Positions 3,017 to 18,422 of a DNA stretch of 64,000 bases are shown here, one piece after another (positions within the stretch are counted from its first letter, which is position 1; the number at the start of each line of letters is the position of its first letter). The notes under the pieces were generated by a model that ran no database searches, was not told the DNA's origin, and saw only the letters and a list, made by a program, of their open reading frames with translations. Location of the stretch: the NCBI GenBank assembly GCA_017461625.1, contig JAFTXJ010000002.1:1-64000 (forward strand). Reading direction: 5' to 3'. The translations under genes and the position numbers were made by a program. This DNA comes from Clostridia bacterium. Its GTDB lineage: Bacteria; Bacillota; Clostridia; Oscillospirales; Acutalibacteraceae.

Positions 3017-3045
3017 AATTTATCACACGACTAAATAGTTGTCAA
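3017..3045 (-). promoter_or_regulatory. Promoter of the B12-riboswitch operon
   Basis: On the minus strand TTGACA (3045-3040), a 17-bp spacer and TAAATT (3022-3017) form a vegetative-type promoter. The -35 hexamer includes the stop codon of the upstream spoIIE gene (TGA, 3044-3042). Confidence 0.65.
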
Positions 3046-5339
3046 GGGTTATCTGCCATAAGAGCAATAACAGTCATATCGTCAGCACGTTTGCCGATCA
3101 TTCTGTCGCAGGCGCATTGCAGAATGTGCTTTGCAAGGTCAGTGGGGGATTGAGCAGCGTATGTTTTTAATTCTGCCGAAATCCAGCCCCAGCTGTCACC
3201 TGTTATTCCGTCTGAAACGGTAAGATAAATGTCTCCTTTTGAAATTGAAATTTCACTTTTTGCCATGTCAACCTTGTCAAGGATTCCTATTGGTGCACTT
3301 TCAGCCTCAAGCACGGAAACCTTGCCGTTTTTTAAAATAAAAGATGGTGCTGCACCGCATTTATATATTGTAAGATTTGCTGCGACCGGGTCAGCGATAA
3401 TTAAATCAACAGTTGCAAGAGATTCATCAGTAGATTTCATAAGCATAGCACAGTTTACGGCAGCGGCAGCGGTTTTAACGTCAAGCCCTGATTTCAAAAG
3501 GTTGCAAAAGGTTTCGCAGGTGAAGGCTGAGTCAACAGCAGCACGTGTACCTGTTCCCATTCCGTCGCTAAGGAGTACCACCTGACGTGAAAATGAATCT
3601 TTAAAGCTGCGGTAATAATCACCGCTTACTCCGTCGGGGGTGGCAGGCTTAACTGCCGCTGAAATTTTAAAGCTGATTTTTGGCTTTTGTTTAAAAATAA
3701 GGGTGTAAACATCATCCTTTTGTATAAGTGTGGGAAAATCAAGCTCAAACCCTGTTTCACGCCGTAAGTTTTCGGTGAGCTTTGTAACGTTAAAATTGTT
3801 GTCAGGTTTTTTAAAAGAGAGGTTAAAATATTCGTGCCCTGCTTTGTTTTGGCAAAGGTGTGCGGAGATTATATCTATGCCGAATTCCTCAGCACACACG
3901 GCACATGCGCGGCTATTTTTTGCCGTAATTGCTCCTGCATTCATTGCTGTGGCACAAATCGGACCGATGATTGAACCGATAGATTTGAGCTGGTTGCCTG
4001 TGATTTCTTGAAAACGGCTGATTTTATTGTCTGAATTTATATTGGTGCAATATACAAAATATGCCTGTCGCATAGAATTCAGCATCTGCTCACTGAGGTA
4101 GCAGGTGTTTTTAAAGTTTTCGGGGAAGGATGAGTAATCAAGCCTGTTTTCATTAAGAGCTGAAGCAATTTTTTTATAGCAAGGGTTGTTTTCTTTTCTT
4201 ATGGAGTTTATACAGCTGTCTTGCAATTCGCATTTTTCACATATTTTTTTGCCTGCATTAAAAAGTACTTGCGTAAGCTCTGCTGTTACAAAGGGTCGCA
4301 GGGTCTTTCTGACAGCATTCATGCAATCACCGAGGTTTTCAACTGCTGCCGAAATTTCTTTTGCCTGAATGGGAATTGCAACATTGTCGGCAATGGTATG
4401 GGGGTCAGAATTTAACCTGTTTTGGAATATTTTTGACGGAATAACCGACATAGTTGCAGCTGACAGAATTGTTGCAGGGAGGGTGGGGAAAAAGTCGGTA
4501 TATTCACCAAAGGCACAGCCTGTAACGGTAAGAGCAATAATCACAATTCCCGATGTGTATCGATACCTTGTGTTAATCAGGGGGCAAATACATCCGCCGA
4601 GAGCTATGGCGGCACACATAAAATCAGCTTCACCGCCCATTGCCAAAGAAACGGCGGCACATACCGAAGTAACAGCCGAAGCAAAGAACGACTTTTTAAA
4701 TGAAAAATATAAAATCCCGCACCAAAAAATCAGGATTGCAAAAAACTCACCGATTACACCTGTTCCCCGAAGCTGACCGATTAAAAAAGATAAGGCAAGA
4801 ATAGCAATTGCCGTATGCTTTTCACCGGATGTTTGTGACAAAAATCTTTTTTCATAAATCTCTTTGATTGCCACGGAAAAAACAGGAACCGCAACAATGG
4901 TGAGCACCGTTTCAACAACTGTTGTAAATATCAGATCTGCACTGAATTTTTGAGAAAAAAGAAAGATGAAGTTTACAATCCCTGCACATAATCCCGGGCA
5001 AATCGGGCGAAGAAGTTTTTCTTTTTTTAAGCCGAGATAATAAAGGCAGATATGTAAAATTGCCGTTGAGGTCAACACCGTTGCGAAATATCTGAAAGCA
5101 GAAATCCCCGATTGAAAAACAAAAATCCCCAGTATTGAGCCGATGGCACAGGTGATTGAAAACATTCCGTTAAGCGCAGCAGGGAGAGCTGCTGCAAATG
5201 GGGAGAATGAGCCGAGAAAATACGGCACAGAGCAAATTATTCCCCCTGAAAAGCTGAGTATAATTTTGGTTAAAAAAGCCAGGCTTTTTCTGTCGCTGAG
5301 GATTGTGTTAAGATGAGATATTTTTTCTTTCACTTTCAT
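3042..5339 (-). CDS. spoIIE: Stage II sporulation protein E, PP2C phosphatase
   Basis: This 765-aa protein has about ten membrane segments (residues roughly 20-310), a soluble linker with a Cys cluster near residue 368 (CEKC then a further Cys), and a C-terminal PP2C-type Ser/Thr phosphatase domain (about 560-765). The metal-binding motifs SGDYY, LSDGMGTG (near 590), VSDGI and DDMTV are all present, so it should be active. In endospore formers SpoIIE acts at the asymmetric septum and dephosphorylates SpoIIAA to release sigma-F. Length and layout are close to the usual ~800 aa. The gene diverges from rlmB; TGGAGTGG precedes ATG 5339. It is strong evidence that the host belongs to a spore-forming lineage. 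Confidence 0.95.
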   Translation of the reverse strand: MKVKEKISHLNTILSDRKSLAFLTKIILSFSGGIICSVPYFLGSFSPFAAALPAALNGMFSITCAIGSILGIFVFQSGISAFRYFATVLTSTAILHICLYYLGLKKEKLLRPICPGLCAGIVNFIFLFSQKFSADLIFTTVVETVLTIVAVPVFSVAIKEIYEKRFLSQTSGEKHTAIAILALSFLIGQLRGTGVIGEFFAILIFWCGILYFSFKKSFFASAVTSVCAAVSLAMGGEADFMCAAIALGGCICPLINTRYRYTSGIVIIALTVTGCAFGEYTDFFPTLPATILSAATMSVIPSKIFQNRLNSDPHTIADNVAIPIQAKEISAAVENLGDCMNAVRKTLRPFVTAELTQVLFNAGKKICEKCELQDSCINSIRKENNPCYKKIASALNENRLDYSSFPENFKNTCYLSEQMLNSMRQAYFVYCTNINSDNKISRFQEITGNQLKSIGSIIGPICATAMNAGAITAKNSRACAVCAEEFGIDIISAHLCQNKAGHEYFNLSFKKPDNNFNVTKLTENLRRETGFELDFPTLIQKDDVYTLIFKQKPKISFKISAAVKPATPDGVSGDYYRSFKDSFSRQVVLLSDGMGTGTRAAVDSAFTCETFCNLLKSGLDVKTAAAAVNCAMLMKSTDESLATVDLIIADPVAANLTIYKCGAAPSFILKNGKVSVLEAESAPIGILDKVDMAKSEISISKGDIYLTVSDGITGDSWGWISAELKTYAAQSPTDLAKHILQCACDRMIGKRADDMTVIALMADNP

Positions 5340-5426
5340 AAAACCACTCCAAAAATCATTTTAAACCTATAATATTTTACTTTTTTCAGGTGGTATAATA
5401 TGTCGGTGTGAACATATAAAAAACTA

Positions 5427-5456
5427 TTGTATTTTGTCGATATAGTATGATATAAT
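5427..5456 (+). promoter_or_regulatory. Probable promoter of rlmB
   Basis: TTGTAT (5427-5432), an 18-bp spacer and a perfect TATAAT (5451-5456) precede the rlmB start by about 40 bp. A TTGTCGAT resembling a Spo0A box with one mismatch lies in the spacer (5434-5441); it may or may not matter for the divergent spoIIE. Confidence 0.55.
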
Positions 5457-5494
5457 GATACTCATAAAACTATAGGCTAAAATAGGGAGTTTTT

Positions 5495-6268
5495 ATGGAT
5501 AAAATGACACAAAGCGAAAACAACGGCCTCATCATCGGCAGAAATGCCGTAACCGAAGCCCTCAGAAGCGGCAGAGTGATTGACACTCTTGTTGTAGCCA
5601 AAGGGGAGCGTGGAGGTTCAATCGGTCAGATTATCAGCCGTTGCAAAGAAAAGGGCGTTGTTGTTAAAGAGGTCGAAAGGAAAAAGCTTGATATGATGTG
5701 CTCAGGTGCAGCTCACCAGGGTGTTGCCGCATATGCTGCTGCTCACGAGTATTCAAGCGTTGAAGATATTTTTGCCCTTGCTGAAGAAAGGGGCGAAGCT
5801 CCGTTTATTATTATCTGTGATGAGCTTGAAGACCCTCATAATTTAGGTGCAATTTTAAGAAGTGCTGAAGCAGGCGGTGCTCACGGAGTTATTATTCCTA
5901 AAAGAAGGAACGCTTCATTGAGCTATGTTGTGGGTAAGGCATCGGCAGGTGCAGTGGAATATGTGCCTGTTGCCAGGGTTTCAAACATTGCATCAACAAT
6001 TGACGAGCTTAAGAAAAAAGGTGTGTGGATTTACACCGCTGATATGGACGGTCAGAATTGGTGTGAGGTTGATTATTCCGGCGGAGTCGGTCTTATAATC
6101 GGCTCTGAGGGTAAGGGTGTCAGCCGCCTTGTTAAAGAAAAAAGTGATTTTACTGTTTCACTCCCGATGAAAGGGAAGATTAATTCCCTTAATGCTTCGG
6201 TTGCTGCAGGAATACTTATTTACGAGGTTTCGAGGCAGCGCTCGGGTATAAAACGAAAGGATGTTTAA
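5495..6268 (+). CDS. rlmB: 23S rRNA 2'-O-methyltransferase (SpoU/TrmH family)
   Basis: This 257-aa SpoU-class methyltransferase has an N-terminal substrate-binding domain beginning IIGRNAVTEAL and a C-terminal trefoil-knot domain with the family motifs DELEDPHNLGAILRSAEA, IIGSEGKGVS and LPMKGKINSLNASVAAGI. RlmB methylates a guanosine in domain V of 23S rRNA using S-adenosylmethionine; the precise target may differ in Firmicutes. The start at ATG 5495 follows AGGGAG. It overlaps the next gene by 8 bp, so the two are probably co-translated, although their functions look unrelated. Confidence 0.93.
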   Translation: MDKMTQSENNGLIIGRNAVTEALRSGRVIDTLVVAKGERGGSIGQIISRCKEKGVVVKEVERKKLDMMCSGAAHQGVAAYAAAHEYSSVEDIFALAEERGEAPFIIICDELEDPHNLGAILRSAEAGGAHGVIIPKRRNASLSYVVGKASAGAVEYVPVARVSNIASTIDELKKKGVWIYTADMDGQNWCEVDYSGGVGLIIGSEGKGVSRLVKEKSDFTVSLPMKGKINSLNASVAAGILIYEVSRQRSGIKRKDV

Positions 6269-8882
6269 GTTGGCTAAAAAGCGTGATGACAAAAATTGGT
6301 CAATGGATGATGTTGACCGTCTTTTAAGCAGAACTGAAAAGGCCCCTCAGAAAGAGGAAACAGTTGTGGAAAATTTTGCCAGAACAATGCGTCTTGCCGA
6401 CACTATGGTTACAACTTCAGTTTCTGCCGAGGAAGCAGCAAGAGTTGAATCCCTTGAGGAGGATACCACTGTGCTGCCGTCTGACTATGCCCGAATTGCA
6501 AAAGAAAAGGCTGATGTCGCTATGGGCATTGTGTCGGCAGATACGGGTGATATTCAGATTTCATCAAAAACAGCAAAGCAAAGAGTGTCGGATGTGCTCA
6601 AAGGTCTTAAAAAGGCAGGTAAAAAAAGTCCTTATGACACCGGAACGGTAAGGATAGATTTTGATGAGCCGTTGATTCCTTCAAAAGAGCATTCTATGGA
6701 AGTGGATGAAAACCGAAGAAAGTTTCTTGAAAGGGTAAAATTTGACGACGAAGATACAGGCGAGCAGACCAAAATAGTTGAACGCCCGGGCTTTGTGATG
6801 CAAAAGGGTGACGATGATATTGATTTAGACCTGGAGTCTGTTCCCACACTTATAGAGGCTGAGGATTTTATCAACACAATTATTCCTGATGATGCTGAGG
6901 TTGACGAATCACAGGATTTGTGGGACGACGGTCAGATTAAGCTTGTAGGGTTTGAAATCGGCACTCAGGAGCCGGAAAAGGTTAACGAGCTTGAAGAAGA
7001 GAAAAATCTTAAGGTTAAACGCCGTGAAAAGATTGACAAGTTTAAGCTTATGGGTATTGCCGAAGCTGAAGAAGAGGGCAGAGCCACTAACGGCAAGCTT
7101 GAAAAACTGTTTGGCGAAGGCTCAAATGATGACAAAACAGATTCAGTTACGGTTAAAACAAACCCCGCCGGCGTGGAATACACAAACGTCAAAGATGCCA
7201 ACCGGGTAAGAGCAACTCTTCACAAGGTTAAACGGTTGTCTGCCATACGTTTTGCGGCTTTCAGCCTGATTACTGTTGCAATGTTTGTAATCAATATTGT
7301 GTCAAAGGTTACACTCGGTTTTGATGCAACGCTTTCTCATTCAATAAACACAGTGCTTCTGATTGCTTGCATAATTATAGGTATGAACACCATAAACAGC
7401 GGTGTTGCAGCCTTGCTTAAAAGGCAACCTAACTTGAAGACATCTGTTACGGTAATATCTGCTATGGCAGTTGTGCAGAGCGTGGTTTCTTTTGCATTAG
7501 AAGAGTTTATGGCAGTTGAAGGCTTTGTTATTTCAGCCTGTGCAGCATTTGCTTTTGCAGTTGATGAGTTTGGTGATTATCTTCGCCATTCAAGAACCTA
7601 TGATGCCTTTAACTTCTGCACAGGTAGAGAAAAAGAAAATCTCCACTCTGTTCAGCGAGTAGAGAATAAAAATGATGAATTTGAAATTGGCAGAGTTCTT
7701 TTAATGAATAAGCCGGATGTCAGATATTCTTGCAAAACTAATTTTCCTACAAAGCTTATTGAGCGTTGCGAAAGTGAAGTTTCATCAGACAAGCTGACTT
7801 CTTTGCTTTTGCCGTTGTCTTTTGCAGCAGGTTTGATTTGTGCAGTTTTGGGCGGAGTATTTTCCAAAAGCTTTGTGGGTGCTGTTACATACCTTTCAGC
7901 GGCTGTGTGCGTTTGTGTGCCGGCTTTTGGTGTGGCAGCTATTCAGCTTCCCCTCAGATGGGTCAACAAACGCCTTAATAAGGCAGGCGGTATGATTTCA
8001 GGTCAGAAAGCTGTTGACGATTTCAGCAAAACCAACGCTGTCGTTGTTGACAGTGCTGATATTTTTGACCAGCAGGCTTGTCGTTTGCACGGTATAAGAG
8101 ATTTTAAAAAGGTGCGTATTGATGACCTTACTCTTTATGCGGCTGCAATGATGGTGAAATCAGGCGGACCTCTTACCGCTGTTTTTGATCAGGTTGTAAG
8201 CAAGCGTGACCTTTTGCCGGCAGTGCACTCGTTTAATTATGAAGAGCGAATGGGTGTTTCGGGCTGGATTAACGGTCAAAAGGTTATTATGGGCAACCGA
8301 AATATGATGAAGCATCATAACATGGAGTTACCCGATATTTCTGAAGAGGAAAGATACACCACCGACGGCAGAAAGGTAATTTACCTTGCCATTGCAAACC
8401 AGCTTGCAGCAATGATGGTTGTGAGTTATGCGCCCAACAAAAAGCTTATACCGTTTATAAGAAGATTGGGCACAAACGGTGTAACGGTCCTTTTGAGGAA
8501 TTATGATTCAAATATTACAACTGATATGATAAACGAGGTTTTCGGTGTCAGATTTAATAATATCCGACTTATAAGCAACACCTCGGGCAGAATTTATAAA
8601 AAGTATAAAAACCGTGTGCGTGAAACCTCAAAGACAGGTATTCTTCACGACGGAAATGCATTCTCACTTTTCAGAAGCTTCACAATGTCATATTCACTTT
8701 GCGGAACTTTTAAGGTTGAAAATCTGATTCAGCTTATCAACGTAATTGTCGGTTTTGCAGTGATTGCAGTGTTTTCAATTTTTGATGTAATTTCAATTAT
8801 GGGAGTATGGCCGTTGCTTTTGGTTCAGGCTGTGATGACAGCGGTGTCATTCCTAGTTGCAAGAGTGAGAGGAATATTTTAA
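6261..8882 (+). CDS. Degenerate P1B-type ATPase-like membrane protein
   Basis: This 873-aa protein has an acidic, charged N-terminal region (about 1-315) without recognised domains, four membrane segments (about 325-441), a further pair (about 515-565), a large soluble region and two C-terminal segments. From residue 550 on it follows the order of a heavy-metal P-type ATPase: VCVCVPAFGVAA where CPC would lie, KAGGMISGQKAVDDF, VVVDSADIF around Asp597 where DKTGTLT is expected, GVSGWINGQKVIMGN (N-domain), and GILHDGNAFSLF where GDGxNDAPAL is expected. No TGES loop is visible. The Asp may remain, but the catalytic motifs are broken, so it is probably a pseudo-pump. It is overlapped by rlmB and lies next to spoIIE. 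Confidence 0.75.
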   Translation: MFKLAKKRDDKNWSMDDVDRLLSRTEKAPQKEETVVENFARTMRLADTMVTTSVSAEEAARVESLEEDTTVLPSDYARIAKEKADVAMGIVSADTGDIQISSKTAKQRVSDVLKGLKKAGKKSPYDTGTVRIDFDEPLIPSKEHSMEVDENRRKFLERVKFDDEDTGEQTKIVERPGFVMQKGDDDIDLDLESVPTLIEAEDFINTIIPDDAEVDESQDLWDDGQIKLVGFEIGTQEPEKVNELEEEKNLKVKRREKIDKFKLMGIAEAEEEGRATNGKLEKLFGEGSNDDKTDSVTVKTNPAGVEYTNVKDANRVRATLHKVKRLSAIRFAAFSLITVAMFVINIVSKVTLGFDATLSHSINTVLLIACIIIGMNTINSGVAALLKRQPNLKTSVTVISAMAVVQSVVSFALEEFMAVEGFVISACAAFAFAVDEFGDYLRHSRTYDAFNFCTGREKENLHSVQRVENKNDEFEIGRVLLMNKPDVRYSCKTNFPTKLIERCESEVSSDKLTSLLLPLSFAAGLICAVLGGVFSKSFVGAVTYLSAAVCVCVPAFGVAAIQLPLRWVNKRLNKAGGMISGQKAVDDFSKTNAVVVDSADIFDQQACRLHGIRDFKKVRIDDLTLYAAAMMVKSGGPLTAVFDQVVSKRDLLPAVHSFNYEERMGVSGWINGQKVIMGNRNMMKHHNMELPDISEEERYTTDGRKVIYLAIANQLAAMMVVSYAPNKKLIPFIRRLGTNGVTVLLRNYDSNITTDMINEVFGVRFNNIRLISNTSGRIYKKYKNRVRETSKTGILHDGNAFSLFRSFTMSYSLCGTFKVENLIQLINVIVGFAVIAVFSIFDVISIMGVWPLLLVQAVMTAVSFLVARVRGIF

Positions 8883-8887
8883 TCATT

Positions 8888-8912
8888 AAAGAGAGCTTCG
8901 GCTCTCTTTTTT
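8888..8912 (+). terminator. Rho-independent terminator
   Basis: AAAGAGAGC - TTCG - GCTCTCTTT followed by T residues directly after the P-type-ATPase-like gene. Confidence 0.85.
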
Positions 8913-8954
8913 GTTTGCGAAAATTAGGAATAATTGAAATTTGATTGCCTATTT

Positions 8955-8993
8955 ACACAAAAACAAGGCAGATAGCATAGCTACCTGCCTTGT
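8955..8993 (-). terminator. Rho-independent terminator of the SPFH gene
   Basis: On the minus strand ACAAGGCAG - 13-nt loop - CTGCCTTGT (8993-8963) is followed by TTTTGTG, just after the SPFH stop codon. Confidence 0.8.
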
Positions 8994-9012
8994 AAGCTCG
9001 GTTGTAATAATT

Positions 9013-9816
9013 TTACTCGGCCTTCTTTTCAAGCTCGTCCATACTCAGGAGAATGTCGCTGTCACCCATAACGGTAGGAAGCTCACCGTTCCATTTGTTC
9101 CACTTTACGTAGTCAACATAGTCGGGGGACTTTGCAAGAGCCTCCTGAATGAGCTTTATACTTTCAGCCTCAGCTTCTGCCTGAGTGATTTTCTGCTTTG
9201 CTTCAACCTCAATACGAGCGAGGTCCTGCTCTGCCTTGAGTGCATTCTGCTGAGCTGTCTGTTTCGCTTCAACAGCGGCATTAAATTCTTCGGAAAAATC
9301 AAAGTTCACAATGTTGAAGATTTCAACAGTAAGTCCGTACTGATTGATTTTGTCTGAAAGAGCAGTTTTAATCTGGTCGCCAACAGACTGACGCTTAGTG
9401 ATAAGCTCCTCAGCTGTGTACTGTGCAGTTACTGCTTTAATGCTTTCCTGAATTGCAGGCACGATAATTACGGAGCCGTAATCCATACCAACGCTCTGAT
9501 AAAGAGAAGCAGATGAGGTGTTATTAACATGGTAGTTAACAGCAACAACATAAGAAATTATCTGCAAGTCCTTTGATGAAGCTGTGCCGTCGGTTTCAAT
9601 CTTCTGAGTACGGTTGTTCATTTGTACAACACTCTGCACAATTGGAGCTTTAAAGTGAAGTCCTTCGTCAAGAACTTTTTCTTCAACTGCACCGAATGTG
9701 AGAACAACGCCTGTGTGACCTGCCTTAACCACTGTGAAGCTGGTGGCAAGCACTGCAATAACAATAACTGCACAAACAACCAGAGCAATAATTTTTGATA
9801 AATTTTTTGTTTTCAT
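9013..9816 (-). CDS. SPFH/band-7 (prohibitin-like) membrane protein
   Basis: This 267-aa protein has one N-terminal membrane anchor (about 8-28), then an SPFH/band-7 domain starting VKAGHTGVVLTFGAVEEKVLDEG, typical of HflC/prohibitin-type proteins, and an Ala/Glu/Gln-rich coiled coil (about 180-235, QTAQQNALKAEQDLARIE). Such proteins form large oligomeric rings or microdomains in the membrane and scaffold proteases or transporters. I chose ATG 9816, which has AAGGAG 7 nt upstream; the frame is open further but without a binding site. It is a single-gene unit with its own terminator and a leader that looks like a manganese riboswitch, tying it to Mn2+ physiology by inference. Confidence 0.9.
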   Translation of the reverse strand: MKTKNLSKIIALVVCAVIVIAVLATSFTVVKAGHTGVVLTFGAVEEKVLDEGLHFKAPIVQSVVQMNNRTQKIETDGTASSKDLQIISYVVAVNYHVNNTSSASLYQSVGMDYGSVIIVPAIQESIKAVTAQYTAEELITKRQSVGDQIKTALSDKINQYGLTVEIFNIVNFDFSEEFNAAVEAKQTAQQNALKAEQDLARIEVEAKQKITQAEAEAESIKLIQEALAKSPDYVDYVKWNKWNGELPTVMGDSDILLSMDELEKKAE

Positions 9817-16147: not shown

Positions 16148-16352
16148 CTTTAACGTGTTTTAAAATGTCTTCAACTTCACAGTCTAAGGTATAGCAAAGA
16201 GCGTCAAGCGTTTTTGTGCTGATTGCTTCACCGTGCTTAATTCTGTGAATTGTGTTCGCAGAAAAGCCTTCTTTATAAATCAGTTGATACTCTGTAATAT
16301 TTTTCTTAAAAAGAGTTTCGTAAAATGGCTTATAGCTAATCATTTTAATCAC
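16143..16352 (-). CDS. XRE-family (YozG-like) helix-turn-helix regulator
   Basis: This protein of up to 69 aa is one small Cro/C1-type helix-turn-helix domain of the short class: YKPFYETLFKKNITEYQLIYK, SANTIHRIKHGEAISTKTLD, then CYTLDCEVEDILKHV. Either ATG 16352 or ATG 16343 could start it. It diverges from a strongly promoted surface-protein gene; a perfect palindrome (16426-16447) in between is a candidate binding site, so it may control that gene. Both genes lie between two copies of a 114-bp direct repeat, as if carried together. Confidence 0.8.
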   Translation of the reverse strand: MIKMISYKPFYETLFKKNITEYQLIYKEGFSANTIHRIKHGEAISTKTLDALCYTLDCEVEDILKHVKE

Positions 16353-16379
16353 CGATTAAATTTTAACATACTCAAACTC

Positions 16380-16408
16380 TTGACAATACTCAAAACATTG
16401 ACTATAAT
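16380..16408 (+). promoter_or_regulatory. Strong promoter of the surface-protein gene
   Basis: TTGACA (16380-16385), exactly 17 bp, and TATAAT (16403-16408) are both perfect consensus hexamers. ACTCAAA-type repeats flank the -35. Confidence 0.85.
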
Positions 16409-16425
16409 AGTTTATGCTCAATATT

Positions 16426-16447
16426 TTAACTATATACATATAGTTAA
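16426..16447. promoter_or_regulatory. Perfect palindrome downstream of the promoter
   Basis: TTAACTATAT - AC - ATATAGTTAA has two perfect 10-bp arms and lies about 18-39 bp after the -10, in the transcribed leader. It may be an operator for the divergent XRE protein or an RNA hairpin protecting the message 5' end. Confidence 0.6.
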
Positions 16448-16469
16448 ACAAAAAGAAAGGGGTAAATTT

Positions 16470-18422
16470 ATGAAAAAATTTTTGGCAATTTTATTAGTGT
16501 TAGTTATGGTTATGGGTATTGCACCAATGGCCATGGCGGCAACTGTAAACGAAAGTGAATCAAATGACAGCTATTCAACAGCAGATACATTTGCACTTAA
16601 TAGTACAGTTCGAGGAAAAATGGAAGATTATGACGATGCGGACTATTATAAAATTATTGCTAGTACAAATGGTAAGCTTTCTATTACATTCAATCACATA
16701 TATTCAGGCAAGGATAACAGTTGGTACGTAACAATTTACTATTATGCGAATAATGTTTACAATGAGCTTTCAAATACATCAATAAGCTTGAGAGACAGTG
16801 AATCTGTTACACTTCCTATGGTAGGCTCAGTTGCAAATGGTGTGTACTATATAAAAGTGACAAATGGATTTTATGAGCCTGTTGGAGTAGAATACAGTAT
16901 TAAAAATACTTTTGTTTCGAGCAATTATATAGAAAGAGAAACTAATGAAACATATGCAACGTCAACCGTTATGTCAACAGATAAGGAATATATCGGTACA
17001 ATGAGTCGCCATAACGATTGTGATTATTACAAATTAACAGCGCCGTCAAACGGAAAACTTTCATTTACATTTAATCACACATATTCAGATAACAATAACA
17101 GTTGGTATGTAACAATTTACTATTATACGAATAACACTTACAACGAGCTTTCAAATGCATCAATAGGTATGAGGGATAGTGAATCTATTACTCTTCCTAC
17201 GGTGGGTACAGTCGCAAATGGAGTATACTATATAAAAGTAACAAATGGATTTTATGAGCCTGTTGGAGTAGAATACAGTATTGAAAATTCATTTATTCCG
17301 ACCGAAAACTTTGAAAAAGAAATAAATAATACCTATACGAATGCAACTGTAACTAATTTAGGTGTTGAAATGGGAGGTTGTATAAATAGTTCCGAGGATA
17401 TTGATTTATTTAAAATTGTTTCAACTTCAACTCAAAGTATTCCTGTGATATTCAATCATAAATATGAAGATAAAGGCGGGTATTGGTATATTTGCATATA
17501 CAAATATAGCGATGGCAAGTATACAGAACTTAAAGAAGACAGTGTTTATAGAGATCATACAACCGAAAGCAAAGAAATATATTCTATATCAGCAGAAAAA
17601 AATGGTGTTTATTACATAAAAATTGAAAATGGATTTTATGATGCAATCGGTAGTGACTATTCTTTTGTAGCAGGAACTAAAACTTCAACAATCCATACCG
17701 TAACCTACAACGCCAACGGTGGCAGTGTGTCTCCGTCAAGTGCAAATGTAGTTTCAGGTAACTCCGTAATACTTCCTACACCTACTAAATCTTACACGAT
17801 TTCATATTATGCAAATGGTGGTAGCGGTGCACCGTCTTCTCAGAAGATTAATGTAACATGTAAAGGCTGGTCAACAAGCAGTGCAACAAGTGCATCATAT
17901 TCATGCGGTGCATCATATAAACCAACAGCTAATACAACCTTGTATGCTGTGTGGAATACATCGGCAAATGCCAATTTGTCCCAGACAAAGCCTTCTCGCA
18001 GCGGATATACTTTCCTCGGCTGGTCAACAAACAGTAACGCAACAAGCGTATCATATGCAGCGGGTAACGGCGTAACTGTTTCAGGCAATGTAAGTCTTTA
18101 TGCAGTATGGCAGAAAAATCAGATTCAGGAACCGGAACAGCCCCAGATCCCTCAGATTGAATATAAAACAATCTTTATGAATTATAAAGATACATATAAA
18201 ATTACAGTTGAAGGTTTTACTGCGACAAGGTTTGTTTCAGAAGATGATTCAATTGTTTCAGTTGATTCAGAGGGTAATGTAAGATCGAATTCAACAGGAT
18301 CATCAGACATTTATGTTTATGATTCAAATGGTGACGTAAGAGTTGTTTATACATTTGAGGTTGAGTATACCTTCTGGCAGTGGATAATCGTTATTCTTCT
18401 CTTTGGGTGGATATGGTATTAA
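16470..18422 (+). CDS. Cell-surface protein with PPC-like and Listeria-Bacteroides repeats
   Basis: This 650-aa exported protein has a signal peptide (MKKFLAILLVLVMVMG, cut after AMA near residue 26), three beta-sandwich repeats of about 120 aa resembling bacterial pre-peptidase C-terminal (PPC) domains (about 28-400; NESNDSYSTAD then DADYYKI, each ending NGVYYIKVTNGFY-like), two or three InlB-type Flg_new repeats (about 408-560; YNANGGS and GYTFLGWST), a Big-like domain and a C-terminal aromatic hydrophobic tail (about 634-650, FWQWIIVILLFGWIWY). GAAAGGGG precedes ATG 16470. There is no LPXTG, so the tail is the likely anchor. The DNA of this gene is visibly more AT-rich than its neighbours. 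An adhesin or glycan-binding role is inference. Confidence 0.85.
   Translation: MKKFLAILLVLVMVMGIAPMAMAATVNESESNDSYSTADTFALNSTVRGKMEDYDDADYYKIIASTNGKLSITFNHIYSGKDNSWYVTIYYYANNVYNELSNTSISLRDSESVTLPMVGSVANGVYYIKVTNGFYEPVGVEYSIKNTFVSSNYIERETNETYATSTVMSTDKEYIGTMSRHNDCDYYKLTAPSNGKLSFTFNHTYSDNNNSWYVTIYYYTNNTYNELSNASIGMRDSESITLPTVGTVANGVYYIKVTNGFYEPVGVEYSIENSFIPTENFEKEINNTYTNATVTNLGVEMGGCINSSEDIDLFKIVSTSTQSIPVIFNHKYEDKGGYWYICIYKYSDGKYTELKEDSVYRDHTTESKEIYSISAEKNGVYYIKIENGFYDAIGSDYSFVAGTKTSTIHTVTYNANGGSVSPSSANVVSGNSVILPTPTKSYTISYYANGGSGAPSSQKINVTCKGWSTSSATSASYSCGASYKPTANTTLYAVWNTSANANLSQTKPSRSGYTFLGWSTNSNATSVSYAAGNGVTVSGNVSLYAVWQKNQIQEPEQPQIPQIEYKTIFMNYKDTYKITVEGFTATRFVSEDDSIVSVDSEGNVRSNSTGSSDIYVYDSNGDVRVVYTFEVEYTFWQWIIVILLFGWIWY

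Follow-up and report, generated by a model that had tools for sequence, protein, structure and literature searches.

What does a bacterial protein do that is built like a copper pump and has none of the pump's catalytic motifs intact? The question is raised by an 873 amino acid (aa) open reading frame (ORF) at 6261..8882 on the + strand of the window, a stretch of 64 000 nucleotides from a Clostridia bacterium (contig JAFTXJ010000002.1), which was examined by ORF calling and by NCBIfam, PDB and profile-profile comparison. On sequence comparison the ORF is a real gene and a homologue of the P1B (CopA-type) pumps. The interpretation that we favour, with some reserve, is that it belongs to an order-wide family derived from P1B pumps, encoded behind rlmB, which would no longer pump and would act as a membrane sensor or scaffold. 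The pumping parts have been lost yet the gene is kept beside rlmB across the order, and the protein therefore probably senses or holds something instead.

A P1B framework with altered catalytic motifs

The window protein matched the NCBIfam models for CopA (NF007952, E=1.8e-13; 49.6 bits, the curated cut-off of 1316 not being reached) and for heavy-metal P-type ATPases (TIGR01525, E=5e-12; 45.5 bits, the curated cut-off of 346.25 not being reached). No Pfam family was found over its cut-off, and the best Pfam match, to DRTGG (E=0.14), was rejected as not significant. A single-sequence search of the PDB gave the copper ATPase 3rfu as the top match (E=8.2e-13) and one other match only (0.89). 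When a 41-member family profile was aligned with 13 true P1B pumps by hhalign, the alignment covered 533 columns (probability 100, E=2.8e-38), and copper ATPase structures ranked first when the family profile was searched against the PDB (3rfu, E=3.6e-40), which bears out the relationship claimed in an earlier note on this DNA. The CopA model matched 33 of the 41 family members. The note had recognized the P1B order of elements from residue ~550 onwards; the order holds and is colinear, but the similarity is wider and covers about residues 312-840 of the window protein. Nine hydrophobic segments were found in this protein by hydropathy scan, of which eight fit the P1B helices and the ninth (706-724) lies inside the cytoplasmic block; other members of the family have seven to ten. 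The hydropathy scan and hhalign together outline an eight-helix P1B-like membrane domain with cytoplasmic modules (residues 329-872; 7245..8876, + strand).

For the motif counts, 87 family ORFs were aligned jointly with 25 true pumps. The 87 ORFs come from 86 genes, one gene being divided into L025 and L064. They are the members whose DNA was fetched, fewer than the 292 carriers described below; L079 and L080, from two genomes and >95% alike, are both in the set. DKTGT, TGES and CPC were each intact in 0/87 family ORFs and in 25/25 true pumps, the latter having been picked by DxTGT, so that their DKTGT count is by construction. GDGxNDxP was intact in 0/87 and 22/25 respectively. The earlier note had reasoned that close homologues with an intact DKTGT would point to a recent pseudogene; none of the 87 ORFs has this motif, and the objection therefore falls away.

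The position of DKTGTLT is taken by VVVDSADIF (residues 594-602; 8040..8066, + strand) in both the PDB and the family alignments, as had been proposed by eye. The context of this site in the family is D or E at +3 (74/86), a hydrophobic residue at +4 and Phe at +5 (71/86). The absence of a TGES loop was likewise confirmed and extends to its surroundings: the stretch between the Gly that closes M2 and the M4 Pro has a median length of 114 aa in the family (101-129, n=85) compared with 179 in the 25 true pumps, and 65 residues around TGES are deleted, leaving a shortened A-domain-like loop (residues 435-512; 7563..7796, + strand; motif and length counts). A second deletion lies in the P domain. 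Between the TGD Asp and M5 the family has 78 aa (74-80, n=85) and true pumps have 109 (108-109), the GDGxND columns are gaps in all 85 family ORFs with coverage, and a 31-residue piece has been deleted. HDGNAFSLF (residues 796-804; 8646..8672, + strand) had been equated with GDGxNDAPAL. This equation is wrong because the GDGxND piece is deleted; the profile alignment puts HDGNAFSLF downstream of the deleted piece, not on it, which rules it out as a remnant.

The remaining sites give a mixed picture. At the CPC site in M4 the first Cys is found in 5/86, the second in 0/86 and the proline in 72/86, and the SEHP pocket His is kept in 0/86. The first Gly of GxG is present in 24/86 and the second in 85/86; the Gly of GN is present in 86/86 and its Asn in 52/86. 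DSNIT occupies the TGDN site, with its Asp kept (residues 749-753; 8505..8519, + strand; family alignment). The family thus resembles the CopA-type P1B copper ATPases (3rfu, NF007952) in the order of its helices and of its A/P/N modules, by profile alignment, and in largely keeping the second Gly of GxG, the GN Gly, the M4 proline and the TGD Asp. Unlike them, it has no intact DKTGT, TGES, GDGxND or CPC and no pocket His, its M2-to-M4 stretch is 65 residues shorter and its P domain 31 residues shorter, and a long acidic tail is carried in front.

When 83 family and 25 true-pump sequences were placed in one tree, a long branch (1.5) set the two groups apart. The support printed for this split after rerooting was only 0.30, so a presumed single origin of the family rests mainly on the shared deletions.

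Retention across the order and selective constraint

Matches were found in 58 of 60 relatives searched; G022 and G040 had no match in this search. Low-scoring second matches in the relatives cover about residues 509-763 only, and the 13 second-match loci examined proved to be true P1B pumps, one of them (L002/L065) in the window's own genome. Among 297 sampled genomes of the window's own order, 290 carry a member at E<=1e-45, a figure that rose to 292/297 after the misses were inspected. G706 has a full-length diverged copy right behind rlmB (L147:1057-3879; hmmsearch E=4.7e-46), and the family is drifting fast in this lineage. In G448 the contig ends within the gene and leaves an N-terminal piece, also right behind rlmB. 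The remaining five (G390, G473, G493, G523 and G620) yielded no family gene at E<=1e-45 and no RlmB over the cut-off, with weaker SpoU-type matches only. Their stated completeness is 95-100%, and both genes may have been lost jointly or fallen into an assembly gap, two explanations that are indistinguishable here.

The wider surveys placed the family in this order. In the class survey of 391 sampled genomes, in which scoring covered the three top first-look candidates of each genome, 17 of the 18 genomes of the order (the window's own included) gave a full-length match at E<=1.2e-100. In the 373 genomes outside the order no full-length match was present among the matches listed, of which the best had E=5.1e-41; the listed matches span model positions 206-500 only, as true P1B pumps do. 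A survey of 398 genomes of the phylum gave only six matches at E<=1e-42, all in the same order, and no relative was found in the viral contigs searched. The gene is near-universal in the sampled genomes of one order, was not found in the rest of the class as sampled, and has no Pfam family over cut-off.

Selection was assessed by the ratio of non-synonymous to synonymous substitution (dN/dS, Nei-Gojobori) against the nearest relative, L032; dS is near 1 and the values are rough. dN/dS was ~0.03 in residues 435-512, ~0.05 in residues 570-820, ~0.07 for the membrane part overall and 0.15 for the N-terminal tail. The gene is under purifying selection. This result, together with the loss of the motifs in 87/87 ORFs, upholds the description of the product as a pseudo-pump. 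Two loci could be cited for a recent pseudogene or an assembly artefact: a possibly decaying copy in G058 (L035, contig C38) has an in-frame TGA, and the gene of G007 is split over two contigs. Against this, the gene is present in 292/297 genomes of the order with dN/dS of ~0.03-0.15 by region; such retention and constraint rule out a recent pseudogene, and the probability left to this explanation is negligible.

Conservation is unevenly distributed. By information content and dN/dS the best-conserved part is a P/N-domain-like cytoplasmic block (residues 564-770; 7950..8570, + strand), with a mean of 1.60-1.76 bits compared with 1.10-1.40 elsewhere (two duplicate loci, L134 and L135, counted in), and conservation in the membrane helices is lower. 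Many of the top-conserved residues, including Y723, F642, F602, N751 and W669, are not those found in P1B pumps. We read this pattern as re-tooling rather than decay.

Candidate roles for a pump without its motifs

With the phosphorylation motif, the TGES loop, GDGxND, CPC and the pocket His all gone, the protein would form no aspartyl-phosphate and would not pump. The P/N-like cytoplasmic block may have been turned into a module that binds some ligand or partner in the cytoplasm, with the former pump helices presumably holding this module in the membrane, and the long acidic tail, which carries a short W/F-S-x-D-D-I motif, might recruit a partner. The role as membrane sensor or scaffold would be general and not spore-specific. 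A more specific version is put forward tentatively, and with less confidence: an ancestral P1B copy may, via two internal deletions, have become an order-wide core membrane receptor, non-enzymatic and encoded with rlmB, that senses a cytoplasmic ligand through a re-tooled nucleotide domain.

The N-terminal tail had been noted as acidic, and it is: the charge count and dN/dS define an acidic, less conserved region of about 300 residues (1-304; 6261..7172, + strand). The tails of the family are net negative in 71/80 and have a median length near 300 residues (duplicate loci L134 and L135 included). In the window protein a tail motif scan located W-S-M-D-D-V-D-R-L-L at residues 13-22 (6297..6326, + strand). 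The corresponding motif class, aromatic-S/T-x-acidic-acidic-I/V/L, was found in 31/80 tails, where shuffles expect 0.42 and reversed tails gave 0; the motif starts within 60 aa in 29 of these 31. Two DNA patterns of the motif were scanned in ten genomes each, and the family gene accounted for 4/4 and 4/5 matches, the backward control of the second pattern giving one match. A motif common to many proteins is thus ruled out for the genomes scanned, 8/9 pattern matches being the family gene. We infer that it serves to bind a partner.

Several points weigh against a sensor or scaffold that has left all chemistry behind. The strict tail motif is missing in 49/80 tails. The DKTGT position holds an Asp in 53/87 family ORFs and the TGD Asp is kept in 83/85, and some phosphate or metal chemistry is therefore conceivable. 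A further point, and the chief reason for caution, comes from ERMA/TMEM94, a human endoplasmic reticulum protein with a P-type fold, which is reported to move Mg with TGES absent and GDGVND replaced (PMC13322241). Because of this report, loss of motifs alone does not prove the absence of transport.

The family might accordingly still transport by an unorthodox chemistry of the kind claimed for ERMA/TMEM94, driven by the Asp at the DKTGT position, where there is one, or by another energy source. In favour of such a transporter are the Asp, the M4 proline and a polar position conserved in M1, residue 406, which is Q in 48 and H in 18 of 85; the ERMA precedent includes D427, reported to be needed for Mg uptake. 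That account also describes GSSANL in place of GDGVND and structures in which the nucleotide pocket is occluded. The absence of TGES and a GDGxND-type motif that is not intact are shared with the family; ERMA/TMEM94 differs, on the same account, in being eukaryotic and in keeping DK in DKQGI, whereas the family has lost the GDGxND piece and varies at the Asp position. The Asp is absent in 34/87 ORFs, the GDGxND segment is missing in 85/85, neither TGES nor CPC survives in any, and the cytoplasmic block is more conserved than the membrane helices. On this evidence continued transport is unlikely.

A slightly lower likelihood attaches to a regulatory partnership in which the protein would pair with the cell's own CopA and damp or localize it. 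The window's genome does encode a true CopA-like pump (L065) that has each of the five motifs scored, and second-class P1B matches occur in many relatives. No pump gene, however, is conserved in linkage around the pair formed by rlmB and the family gene, and the class, in which the family was not found, has widespread P1B-type matches too.

Pseudo-kinases and pseudo-proteases are well known. In the open-access papers searched nothing was found that pairs a P-type ATPase with the term pseudoenzyme, and no earlier description of this family was found in the titles and abstract openings covered. A second likeness is offered by the ATPase-like domain of the apicomplexan guanylate cyclase PfGC-beta, a P-type module described as degenerated (PMC6592433), which differs in being P4-like, fused to a cyclase and eukaryotic. 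Conserved dead P-type pumps seem to be hardly described, the nearest cases found being eukaryotic. The family could show what the P-type fold does without ATP turnover.

Linkage to rlmB and relation to spore genes

In the window the pseudo-pump ORF lies directly behind rlmB (23S rRNA (G2251-2'-O)-methyltransferase; 5495..6268, + strand; TIGR00186, E=2.3e-73, over cut-off). The two frames are on the same strand and overlap by 8 bp, and a possible alternative start of the 873-aa ORF is a TTG at 6270, just past the rlmB stop. After 16 of the 87 family ORFs with upstream DNA that was too short had been set aside, rlmB was found upstream on the same strand in 70/71 testable loci, at a distance of -196 to +182 bp in 68/71. 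The far cases are L037, with rlmB 4212 bp away, and the interrupted gene L035, whose 1106 bp was taken from the later open piece only. The sole testable locus without upstream rlmB is L058, from a genome (G037) that has rlmB on another contig. No conserved third gene was found around the pair among 32 loci compared.

On the far side of rlmB stands a divergent neighbour, spoIIE (3042..5339, - strand; TIGR02865, E=1.9e-67, below its cut-off). Of 17 relatives in the window's genus, 12 have a SpoIIE match adjoining rlmB. The fetched stretches of four others end within ~230 bp of rlmB; the remaining one showed no SpoIIE match in 513 bp. Outside the genus, 28 loci were fetched with longer flanks and none had a SpoIIE match next to rlmB. 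The earlier note had placed the gene next to both spoIIE and rlmB: the conserved neighbour is rlmB, and adjacency to spoIIE is seen only in the window's genus.

The suggestion that the protein is a sporulation-linked membrane protein drew on this adjacency and could also appeal to the order being mostly SpoIVA-positive (280/297). The family gene is nevertheless kept in 16 of the 17 SpoIVA-negative genomes. SpoIIIAE was sought in 23 genomes (the 17 SpoIVA-negative and six others), every match being below the curated cut-off; eight genomes have neither SpoIVA nor SpoIIIAE, and the family gene is kept in 8/8. All seven genomes without a family match at E<=1e-45 have a SpoIIIAE match. The class holds many spore formers, and the 373 genomes outside the order showed no full-length member among the matches listed. 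By its distribution the pseudo-pump gene is not a spore gene; a sporulation-linked role is improbable, and the spoIIE link was rejected as a functional clue, since the adjacency is confined to one genus and spore markers do not track the family gene. The window's own metagenome-assembled genome (86.6% complete) has a SpoIIIAE match and no SpoIVA. In genus g279, four genomes (G464, G475, G486 and G506) are without SpoIVA and SpoIIIAE matches and have probably lost sporulation; a fifth genome of it, G453, has SpoIVA.

Directly 3' of the 873-aa ORF lies a terminator-like hairpin of nine pairs with a T run (8888..8909, + strand), which is a pattern match only; the pattern occurs at 14 sites in 5300-9050, compared with a shuffle mean of 3.5. 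Elsewhere in the window, a 481-aa ORF at 249-1694 gave no Pfam or NCBIfam match at E<=1, and a 729-aa ORF with a GTG start at 16233-18422 carries List_Bact_rpt repeats and is likely to encode a surface protein.

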